Origin: Chitinophagales bacterium
Lineage (GTDB): Bacteria > Bacteroidota > Bacteroidia > Chitinophagales > JADIYW01
Direction: 5' to 3'
DNA: 64,000 nt
Assembly: GCA_019694955.1 (NCBI GenBank)
Contig: JAIBAX010000018.1
Span: 1 to 64,000 of the forward strand
Under the pieces are notes generated by a model that was not told where the DNA came from, searched no databases, and saw only the letters and a program-made list of their open reading frames with translations. Shown here in pieces: positions 20,289 to 23,597 of this stretch. Numbering within the stretch: position 1 is the stretch's first letter; every line of letters starts with the position of its first letter. Both the position numbers and the translations under genes were made by a program.

Positions 20289-20296
20289 TATTTTTG
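20289..20296 (+). promoter_or_regulatory. -7 element for the protease cassette
   Basis: TATTTTTG, a full match, lies between the gldB stop and the ATG at 20316 (19 bases away). It suggests that the two-gene cassette can be transcribed separately from gldB. Confidence 0.55.
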
Positions 20297-20315: not shown

Positions 20316-21500
20316 ATGAATAAGAATTTTACATTCCATCCTACTTTAGTAGATAGCGTTTCAAGCAAGTGCGATATAGCTAAGTGGGATGAAGTAATGG
20401 CTGCTTGGGAGAAGAAAGAATATTTGCAATCGCTGCAAAGTTTGTTCGATTATGTAGACCCTGAGTTGGCAAAAAAATATGCAAATGTGGAAAGAACCTT
20501 GTGGAAAGTGCCGCATGGGTCGGTAATCGTTCAAATGGAAATTACCGCAGAGTTGTTTAAAGTAGAGGCACCCTTTTTGACTATCACGGGTGCTAAGAAA
20601 ATTCCTTTGCTCAGACAAGTGGCGCAGTTGAATTTTCACCCACTGACCATTACCAAAATTGACATGAAAGAGGATTGTCTTTATTTTAGGTTTGCTTGTC
20701 CTTTGGAATTATGTGAACCCTATAAAATATACGATGCCTTAAGAGAAATTTGTATCAATGCTGATCAGTATGATGATGCGTTTATCAAAAAATTTGATGC
20801 GAAGAGGATTCAGGAACCAATCATAACGCCATATAGTCAGGAGACAAAGCAGAAGGCTTGGGACTACCTGCAATTATATCTAAGTGAGGCAGATGAAGCT
20901 TTCAAATACTTCGAAGAACGTCGATTGTCGGGCTTTGAATGGGATGTTATCATGATTACCCTCATGAAATTGGAATACCTAATATCGCCACAGGGCAACC
21001 TCAGAAATGACATAGAAAAGCAACATATTGACATGGGCACCAATGAGGATATTGCCACAAAAGTGCAACGTGGGAAAGATTTCTTACGCCAACTCCGCAA
21101 TATGAGTCGTACTGAATTTGATGCTGACTTATATAAAATTGATACACTCATACAATATAAGTTTAGAGCAACTTTACCGAATATAAAACAAAACCTACAA
21201 GGAGCATTGGATCAGGCAAAGAAAGAAATAGAAAACAAAGACTATATTGGCGCAATGCTTACTTTGGAGTACAATTTCTTCAATATGTATTATTTCAACC
21301 ATGTTGGAGATGAAATAGATGCTTTGGTACGGCCTTCTTTAGAAAATGCTTCCGGCAAACCTGTCGCTGAAGCAGCAGATATCCTATATAAAGCAATGGA
21401 AGATCTGATAAACGGAAATATTCCCGTTCAAAGGGCGGCACCACCACAAGGAAGAAAGGAAGAAAAGAAGGGATTTTTTGCAAAATTATTTGGTAATTAA
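20316..21500 (+). CDS. Unknown protein, possible type III chaperone/YbjN-like domain plus helical region
   Basis: 394 residues, no signal peptide or membrane segment. Residues ~60-175 alternate strands and helices (VIVQMEITAELFKVEAPFL, LLRQVAQLNFHPLTITKIDM) in a pattern I associate with the type III secretion chaperone/YbjN-like fold. The middle (~180-350) is helical, partly coiled-coil-like. The C-terminus is a charged linker ending KKGFFAKLFGN, a short amphipathic tail. It lies 14 bases before a protease gene whose C-terminal domain looks similar in type, so the two probably act together. The fold assignment is inference. Confidence 0.6.
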   Translation: MNKNFTFHPTLVDSVSSKCDIAKWDEVMAAWEKKEYLQSLQSLFDYVDPELAKKYANVERTLWKVPHGSVIVQMEITAELFKVEAPFLTITGAKKIPLLRQVAQLNFHPLTITKIDMKEDCLYFRFACPLELCEPYKIYDALREICINADQYDDAFIKKFDAKRIQEPIITPYSQETKQKAWDYLQLYLSEADEAFKYFEERRLSGFEWDVIMITLMKLEYLISPQGNLRNDIEKQHIDMGTNEDIATKVQRGKDFLRQLRNMSRTEFDADLYKIDTLIQYKFRATLPNIKQNLQGALDQAKKEIENKDYIGAMLTLEYNFFNMYYFNHVGDEIDALVRPSLENASGKPVAEAADILYKAMEDLINGNIPVQRAAPPQGRKEEKKGFFAKLFGN

Positions 21501-21514
21501 CCCAAAAGAAAATC

Positions 21515-22594
21515 ATGATGAATCAACAGGAATTAAAAGATGCAGTATTTAAGATAAATACGGCTACAGGAAGTGGAACAGGGTTTTACCTAAAGAACTA
21601 TGATGTGTTTGTTACCAACCACCATGTAGTAGATGGCAATCATCTTGTTTCTCTTGAAAACCAACAACAGGAGCGGCATTTGGCGAAAGTAGTCTTTGTA
21701 AATCCTGATGTGGATATTGCCTTGCTAAAAACAGACACCAAAATATGTCATGCTGAAATTCCTTTTAATGAAGTCTTGGAAGTACAAAGTCGTGACAAAG
21801 TGTGGGTACTTGGGTTTCCTTTTGGCATGCCCTTTACTGTTACCGAAGGTATTGTTTCCAACAACAAGCAATTATTGGAAGGGAAGCACTACATACAAAC
21901 CGATGCTGCCGTCAATCCCGGCAATAGTGGAGGGCCTGTTGTTGACGCCAATGGAAATTTGGTAGGTATAACGAATGCTAAATTCAATAATGCGGACAAT
22001 GTAGGGTTTGCCATTCCGGCACAAGTGCTGAGAGAGGAATTAAATACGTTGGCAAAGAACCCTAATAACCAATTTTCGGTGAAATGCCATTCCTGCAAGA
22101 ACCTGATTTTTGAAAAAACAGAATACTGCCCAAACTGTGGTGCCAATGTGGATGTAAAGCAGTTTGAAGAAAGAAAAGGCGACTATTTTGTTGCATTTGT
22201 AGAGTCTGCCATTCAGGAAATGGGTATCAACCCGGTTTTAACCCGCAGTGGTACTGATTTTTGGGAATTTCATAGTGGGAGTTCTCTGGTGCGTATTTTT
22301 GTTTATAATCAGAGTTTTATGTACGCCACCTCACCGATGAATGAGATGCCGACGGAAAATATAGAACCTTTACTGAATTATGTTTTATCCAATCCGGTGG
22401 AACCTTATCAGTTAGGTATATATAATAATCAGATATTCCTTTCTTACCGGATACGAATGACAGACATAACCTCTTCAAAACAAGGGGTATTAAAATCCTT
22501 GCTGACCAACTTAATTCTCAAAGCAGATGAAATGGATGATTTCTTTGTTCAGCAGTATGGTTGTCCAAAGACCAATTTTGCAAGACAGGTGTGA
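21515..22594 (+). CDS. Cytoplasmic trypsin-like serine protease with zinc ribbon and YbjN-like domain
   Basis: 359 residues without signal peptide. Residues ~8-180 form a trypsin-like/Do-type protease with the triad His37 (TNHHVV), Asp67 (NPDVDIALL) and Ser138 (NPGNSGGP). A zinc ribbon follows with Cys191, 194, 205 and 208 (CHSC and CPNC). Residues ~220-350 look like a YbjN/type III chaperone-like domain (DFWEFHSGSSLVRIFVYNQS, LKADEMDDFF). No PDZ domain is seen. Do-type proteases are usually exported, so a cytoplasmic form with these extra domains is unusual. Two Met codons in a row open the frame. Confidence 0.8.
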   Translation: MMNQQELKDAVFKINTATGSGTGFYLKNYDVFVTNHHVVDGNHLVSLENQQQERHLAKVVFVNPDVDIALLKTDTKICHAEIPFNEVLEVQSRDKVWVLGFPFGMPFTVTEGIVSNNKQLLEGKHYIQTDAAVNPGNSGGPVVDANGNLVGITNAKFNNADNVGFAIPAQVLREELNTLAKNPNNQFSVKCHSCKNLIFEKTEYCPNCGANVDVKQFEERKGDYFVAFVESAIQEMGINPVLTRSGTDFWEFHSGSSLVRIFVYNQSFMYATSPMNEMPTENIEPLLNYVLSNPVEPYQLGIYNNQIFLSYRIRMTDITSSKQGVLKSLLTNLILKADEMDDFFVQQYGCPKTNFARQV

Positions 22595-22598
22595 TGTC

Positions 22599-23597
22599 AT
22601 GTACACGAAAGGGCTTCTATTCTTCTATTTTTTTATCTTTTTGTCTGTTGAAATTAGCGCCCAAACCAGCCCAACAATTGAAAAAGAATTAGCATCAACG
22701 TTATCCTATCCAAGAATATGGTGGGAGCAAAATATTGAAGTAAGCCTTCTTTATCAGGTTATTAATGAAGGCGATTCCTTACAAGTCATGCTTATCTCGA
22801 ACACTAGAGACCTTTACACAGCAAGTATAGAATATTCGTTAAAACATTTGCCAATATCATTATTTGAAAAAGGCGAACCATATTATCTGCTTTTAAGGTT
22901 TGATGACCTCACATATATTGGTGATAGCACCCTATTTAACATATCAATACCTGACAATATTTCTGAAAGTCAATTAATAAGAATGGATATTACCTATGGG
23001 GAGTCTATAGTAGGAGAGATAGATAGCATTATCGCTTTGATAGATACTAACCCAAACCTAATATGGGAAATGGAAAAAAAACCGTTGGATGATGATTTTT
23101 ATTCTGAATTTCCCCAAATAAAGAAGTTTTTTAATAAGAGAATTGAAAAAGGTATTTTTTTAAAGACAAACTATGGATATTGCTCATTCGCAAAAGTAAC
23201 TATTAAAAGAGGAAAGGAACATCATGAAACTTTAGTACTACCAACCGACTTGGCATATTTAACAAAGAAAGGTACATTAATATACGGAAACAATGAAAAA
23301 TATTCCTTTAGTCATCCAAAATCATTGACAACCGAATCATTTTTACGACTGTTTGAATCAATAAAGGAAACACCCATCCTGTCAAATAATCTATTCAATG
23401 AACAAAAATCAGATGGAATATCAAATATGGTTTATGTTTTTGAGGACGGTTATTATAAATGCATTCCTATAAAAAATATGGAAATCGATGTTACGCTGTA
23501 CGGTTCAGAATTATTAATTTTAAATAGAGAAATACTAAGGAGTTTTAATGATTTTTTACATTCTTGTATTTCAATTATTCTTATAGAAAGTAAGTAA
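22599..23597 (+). CDS. Secreted protein of unknown function
   Basis: 332 residues from the ATG at 22599, beginning MYTKGLLFFYFFIFLSVEIS with likely cleavage after SAQ. The frame is open further upstream inside the protease gene, but the signal peptide fixes the start. The mature protein has mixed strands and helices with no recognised motif. It starts five bases after the protease stop, so it may be the third gene of that cassette, though its AT-rich codon use looks a little different and its export makes a shared task uncertain. Confidence 0.7.
   Translation: MYTKGLLFFYFFIFLSVEISAQTSPTIEKELASTLSYPRIWWEQNIEVSLLYQVINEGDSLQVMLISNTRDLYTASIEYSLKHLPISLFEKGEPYYLLLRFDDLTYIGDSTLFNISIPDNISESQLIRMDITYGESIVGEIDSIIALIDTNPNLIWEMEKKPLDDDFYSEFPQIKKFFNKRIEKGIFLKTNYGYCSFAKVTIKRGKEHHETLVLPTDLAYLTKKGTLIYGNNEKYSFSHPKSLTTESFLRLFESIKETPILSNNLFNEQKSDGISNMVYVFEDGYYKCIPIKNMEIDVTLYGSELLILNREILRSFNDFLHSCISIILIESK

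Follow-up and report, generated by a model that had tools for sequence, protein, structure and literature searches.

An HtrA-like protease with a zinc ribbon and a TY-chaperone/YbjN-like domain and its co-inherited partner protein in Bacteroidota: a candidate cytoplasmic proteolytic pair

HtrA proteases are classic quality-control enzymes; those of bacteria act for the most part outside the cytoplasm and recognise their clients via PDZ domains. Here we describe a pair of genes, p1 and p2, in a Chitinophagales bacterium (assembly GCA_019694955.1; the window, i.e. the whole stretch of DNA analysed, comprises positions 1 to 64,000 of contig JAIBAX010000018.1). The catalytic domain of p2 is about 25-33% identical to those of the HtrA/Deg family (DegP, DegQ, DegS, HTRA1, HTRA2; MEROPS S1C), has the same fold and retains the catalytic triad. 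In contrast to that family, p2 has a short N-terminus and is devoid of PDZ, signal peptide and transmembrane segment, carrying a zinc ribbon and a TY-chaperone (TY) domain instead.

The TY domains of p1 and p2 resemble the YbjN family (YbjN of E. coli, AmyR of Erwinia, DR1245 of Deinococcus and Tll0839/2plg) in fold and sequence profile. The members of that family are, however, stand-alone single-domain proteins, whereas here the domain is fused to a protease (p2) or to a helical domain and a tail (p1). Proteins of the TY-chaperone/YbjN family dimerise and the T3SS members wrap client peptides; AmyR and YbjN act through undefined protein-protein contacts (PMC5398634). The fold of p1 also matches that of the class I T3SS chaperones (SycN-YscB, ExsC, SicP, SpcU), the SycN-YscB heterodimer being a model for the pairing of p1 with p2; unlike in those systems, there is no T3SS here, and the coupling is to a protease. 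A further relative, the TY-Chap1 domain (PF22551), belongs to ADP-ribose-linked conflict systems (PMC9503650), from which the present locus differs by the coupling of the domain to a protease: the text of PMC9503650 mentions no trypsin, protease or HtrA, and its sole “peptidase” is a phage-capsid one. An HtrA-type protease with a zinc ribbon and a TY-chaperone domain, paired with a second TY-chaperone protein, is not described in the openly readable full-text literature that we searched. If our interpretation is correct, the combination of a cytosolic HtrA domain with a different module for reading clients and with a second, near-obligate component would represent a new solution to substrate recognition, and YbjN/T3SS-chaperone-like domains outside secretion would gain a testable enzymatic output, namely the feeding of peptides to a protease.

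The gene pair and its promoter region

The original prediction of a two-gene cassette was borne out, both open reading frames being present on the same strand, separated by 14 bp.

20289..20296, + strand: TATTTTTG, candidate Bacteroidota -7 element (TAnnTTTG scan; weak, without a -33 TTG)
20316..21500, + strand: p1, partner protein of 394 aa, TY-chaperone/YbjN-like domain, helical domain and tail (ORF, AlphaFold model, Foldseek, Pfam)
21515..22594, + strand: p2, HtrA-like protease of 359 aa with zinc ribbon and TY-chaperone domain (ORF, Pfam, model, Foldseek)

In the whole window TAnnTTTG occurs 120 times against about 86 expected, a number that none of the shuffles reached, which is consistent with Bacteroidota promoter usage; sigma-70-type sites, sought by consensus scans, are not enriched (19 versus 22.9 expected). 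The -7 element reported to precede the pair thus exists as a motif, but as one of 120 window matches it is weak by itself, and the sequence as read contains no -33 TTG at a suitable distance from TATTTTTG. Since gldB ends, in this genome, merely 30 bp upstream of the start of p1, read-through from gldB is as likely as transcription of the pair from a promoter of its own. On the other side of the pair, a gene for a predicted secreted protein of 332 aa with no Pfam match (22599-23597, + strand) begins 4 bp past the p2 stop codon; it may be co-transcribed with the pair in this genome only and is not conserved beside the pair elsewhere.

Domains of p2 and p1 and the p1 tail

The domain composition of the two proteins is as follows.

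20379..20810, + strand: p1 TY-chaperone/YbjN-like domain, residues about 22-165 (model secondary structure, Foldseek, hhalign to the p2 C-terminal region)
20838..21413, + strand: p1 all-helical domain, residues about 175-366 (model secondary structure)
21432..21473, + strand: p1 disordered linker, residues 373-386 (pLDDT <50)
21465..21497, + strand: p1 tail KKGFFAKLFGN, conserved short motif, putative docking peptide or membrane-binding helix (homologue conservation)
21515..22060, + strand: p2 trypsin-like catalytic domain, residues 1-182, His37/Asp67/Ser138 (Pfam, homologue alignments, Foldseek)
22070..22150, + strand: p2 zinc ribbon, Cys191/194/205/208 (weak Pfam zinc-ribbon matches; four invariant Cys)
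22178..22564, + strand: p2 C-terminal TY-chaperone/YbjN-like domain, residues about 222-350 (hhalign with p1, 2plg, helix/strand order)

The catalytic domain of p2 matches Trypsin_2 of Pfam (E=1e-26), and its closest relatives by both sequence and fold are HtrA1, HtrA2 and DegS (HTRA1 and DegS by Foldseek; pLDDT of the AlphaFold model 90.1). His37, Asp67 and Ser138 are invariant in sets of 20 and 31 homologues, and so are the four cysteines of the zinc ribbon, a domain which was predicted at the outset and to which the Pfam matches are weak. The designation “Do-type” is correct as far as the HtrA-like trypsin domain with its intact triad is concerned; it is nevertheless a loose label, because p2 scores 137 bits against the model that defines the HtrA/Do family (TIGR02037), under the cut-off of 416 bits, and thus has an HtrA-type catalytic domain yet stands outside the Do family proper. 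The Pfam scan of p2 returned no PDZ, and none of the 25 families most frequent in its homologues is a PDZ. In agreement with the predicted lack of a signal peptide, the protease domain sits at the very N-terminus; neither a leader nor a transmembrane segment was seen in p2, the homologues of which likewise start straight at the protease domain. Judged by these sequence features, p2 appears to act inside the cell.

The AlphaFold model of p1 (pLDDT 89.9) consists of a chaperone-like domain followed by an all-helical one, both of which had been predicted. Foldseek aligned the p1 fold with probability 1.00 to 2plg, ExsC, SycH and YscB and with 0.99 to YbjN (6vu7), SycN-YscB being matched as well, and a p1 profile search also retrieved the YbjN-like structure 2plg. 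PF22551 (TY-Chap1) is matched, weakly, by 18 of 26 p1 homologues (best 2e-6), p1 of the window itself remaining at 11.9 bits, below the gathering cut-off of 27 bits. The YbjN-like domain proposed for p2 was recovered as well: the C-terminal region of p2 aligns to p1 by hhalign (97.2%) and to 2plg (E=4e-6), and in the AlphaFold models its helices and strands follow one another as they do in the p1 domain. The p2 domain is assigned by sequence profile and by the order of secondary structure elements in the model, the Foldseek evidence for the fold being that of the p1 domain. From the match between p1 and p2, the matches to 2plg and the common helix/strand order, it follows that p1 and p2 carry homologous TY-chaperone domains, and the alternative that their folds lie outside the chaperone/YbjN class is not borne out.

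The KKGFFAKLFGN tail of p1, singled out in the original prediction, proved to be a conserved motif. The pattern x[FLIW][FWL]x[KRST][LI]F-(G/S) forms the p1 C-terminus in 30 of the 35 short-clade homologues, and its columns (entropy of 0-1.3 bits, 2.6 for the central x) are far less variable than those of the preceding linker, most of which are at about 3. A similar motif is found at the N-terminus of most long-clade p1 proteins (e.g. MGFFDDLFNR); in f67 and G268 the pair is kept and the p1 tail is absent. In the p1 model a short helix (residues 387-392) follows the disordered linker, and the GFFxKLFG stretch presumably resembles the tail of MinD. The membrane-targeting sequence of MinD is a short C-terminal helix beyond the folded core (PMC8155659); the p1 tail is likewise modelled as a short helix after a folded core, but p1 is not an ATPase and its membrane binding is putative.

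A motif of this kind was also sought genome-wide with one DNA pattern for KGxFxxKxxF-type residues, on which the count rests; it matched twice in 4.1 Mb, once in p1 and once at the C-terminal end of DnaJ. This DnaJ ends in EDKGFFGKFF (L167:1498-2655, - strand; genome C37:59813-60967), and in relatives many DnaJ proteins end in related aromatic motifs (KGFFDKFFH, KSFFEKMKDYF), with or without the pair in the genome. Two roles may be considered for the p1 tail, that of a membrane-binding helix like the one of MinD and that of a docking peptide shared with DnaJ. Neither role is established, because the helical moment of the tail core in the window (0.47) is not significant (p=0.08 against its own shuffles); on this measure the tail is a candidate and not a proven amphipathic helix. 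The tail as a ligand of the p2 TY domain is disfavoured, as f67 and G268 retain the pair without it.

Co-occurrence and co-inheritance of p1 and p2

The genomic survey argues against the possibility that the two genes rarely co-occur. Counting full-length p1 and p2 signals, with weak matches of small proteins set aside, 17 of 392 Bacteroidota genomes carry p1 and p2, and the presence sets are identical (Fisher p=4e-30). Co-occurrence is near-obligate among 100 closer relatives too: p1 stands without p2 in G001 alone and p2 without p1 in G012 alone, two incomplete genomes in which the gene lies at a contig end. In family f19 (n=80), both genes are present in 57 genomes, p1 alone in four (G508, 99% complete; G528, 94%; two below 90%), p2 alone in one and neither in 18. 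As to adjacency, p2 is immediately downstream of p1 in 31 of the 34 named genome contigs with p1; of the others, L037 stops 141 bp past p1, and for L038 and L060 p2 is elsewhere in the genome. The genes are non-adjacent in 22 of the 57 pair-bearing f19 genomes; most of these have them on separate contigs, and the single-contig genome G553 has them at distant places. Such retention without linkage is stronger evidence for joint function than adjacency.

The p1 and p2 trees (34 pairs) show the same split into a short and a long clade (rho 0.88). This correlation is supportive but not proof of contact, because shared species ancestry contributes to it and to the co-inheritance of the genes. G084 contains one short-form and one long-form pair (L014, L030) with matched partners; G519 and G550 have three copies of p1 and three of p2 each. 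As far as comparison of genomes can tell, p1 and p2 very probably act as one machine. The genomes lend strong support to the predicted coupling of a cytoplasmic protease to a chaperone-like partner, but do not support the defence role that was attached to it (see below).

A proposed mechanism and its alternatives

We propose, as the best explanation overall and one that we consider somewhat better than even, that p1 and p2 are the two components of a proteolytic machine in the cytoplasm, in which TY domains take the place of PDZ and p1 is an adaptor or regulator. In this machine p2 would supply the HtrA-family catalytic domain, with the zinc ribbon and TY-chaperone domain standing where a PDZ is usual, and p1 would supply the second TY-chaperone domain together with a helical scaffold. 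The TY domains of p1 and p2 most likely associate with each other, as do the subunits of T3SS chaperones and YbjN proteins, which are homo- or heterodimers; the paired domains would form a groove holding an unfolded segment of the client, and this groove would present the client to the p2 active site, or gate it. In the short-form clade, the flexible linker and the KKGFFxKLFG motif of p1 would serve as a tether of the complex, either at the membrane or on a common partner. We infer the complex itself, client binding, proteolysis, tethering and a role in proteostasis or regulated proteolysis. Counting against this explanation are the four p1-only genomes and the p2-only genome of f19 and, regarding the tether, the tail-less clades f67 and G268 and the lack of significant amphipathicity of the window tail. 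Furthermore, peptide binding as chaperones is not proven for proteins of the YbjN fold (PMC5398634), which goes against the client groove. A more elaborate version, which we regard as improbable, would make the pair a cytosolic counterpart of DegP, where a T3SS-chaperone-like heterodimer in place of PDZ domains recruits clients to an HtrA protease and the C-terminal FF-x-K-[LF]-F docking tail of the adaptor, shared with DnaJ, leads to an Hsp70 (DnaK-DnaJ) triage path.

The tight pairing of p1 and p2 would also be expected if p1 were a substrate or an inhibitor of p2, e.g. if cleavage under stress near the flexible linker released or inactivated p1, and the disordered, lysine-bearing linker before the conserved tail would be an exposed cleavage site. 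However, some pair-bearing clades have neither linker nor tail, there is no conserved cleavage site, and the occurrence of homologous domains in p1 and p2 favours pairing over substrate recognition; we consider this alternative unlikely, although it is, with the defence role treated next, one of the two main rivals.

The original prediction envisaged a stress or defence response. In an anti-phage or conflict system, p1 would sense a viral protein and trigger proteolysis by p2, leading to cell death or arrest. Trypsin-like domains are indeed effectors in defence systems, PMC9503650 describes the TY-Chap1-3 families from ADP-ribose conflict systems, and the pair is patchy over the phylum (17 of 392). 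The PADLOC matches of p2 (RT-Protease, LmuA, HamA, Avs1b) are, however, generic and cover the protease domain alone; p1 has no match, and PADLOC gave no match specific to a defence-system protein beyond the generic trypsin domain. Around the pair, the window contains housekeeping genes, a mutY-type glycosylase, rng, nadE, gldB, nrdAB and rsgA (named from Pfam matches, nadE from reading the sequence). The PADLOC matches among them (REase_II, PDC-M71B and LmuB) look generic and were discarded, the proteins being by Pfam an HhH-GPD/NUDIX glycosylase (MutY-type), a TPR protein and RsgA. No third gene recurs beside the pair across the clades examined, there is no island, and the pair was not found in the plasmid, phage and viral-contig collections at the sensitivity used. 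It is moreover present in 10 of 10 high-quality genomes of one genus and in about three quarters of one family. Near-core presence within clades, housekeeping surroundings and absence from the mobile collections point to a stable cellular function instead of a fast-turnover defence cassette. The defence claim is thus not supported and we hold it to be improbable; a role in stress or in proteostasis would be plausible, and protein disposal or processing is most likely, rather than an antiviral role.

The T3SS-chaperone fold of p1 and the proximity of gldB would fit a secretion or gliding accessory, a chaperone-like pair handling export clients of, e.g., the gliding/T9SS pathway. The upstream neighbour, however, differs in every other clade examined, and no secretion role is known for YbjN-fold proteins outside T3SS (PMC5398634), making this very improbable; a functional link to gldB was dropped, as the adjacency is not conserved. 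That p1 and p2 are ordinary neighbours without joint function, short operons arising by chance and relatedness inflating co-occurrence, is hardly credible and is refuted, as far as genomic evidence reaches, by the identical presence sets, the retention of unlinked genes and the matched paralogous pairs.

The proposed proteolytic pair is found in Chitinophagales, Flavobacteriaceae and Fulvivirga and is sparse elsewhere; cultivable members of Bacteroidota clades in which it is near-core include Allomuricauda, Maribacter, Aureibaculum and Fulvivirga. Transfer or mis-binning may explain why the pair also occurs in one Spirochaetes-labelled MAG (L048, JAHITG010000006.1), where the two reading frames overlap and p1 lacks the tail.
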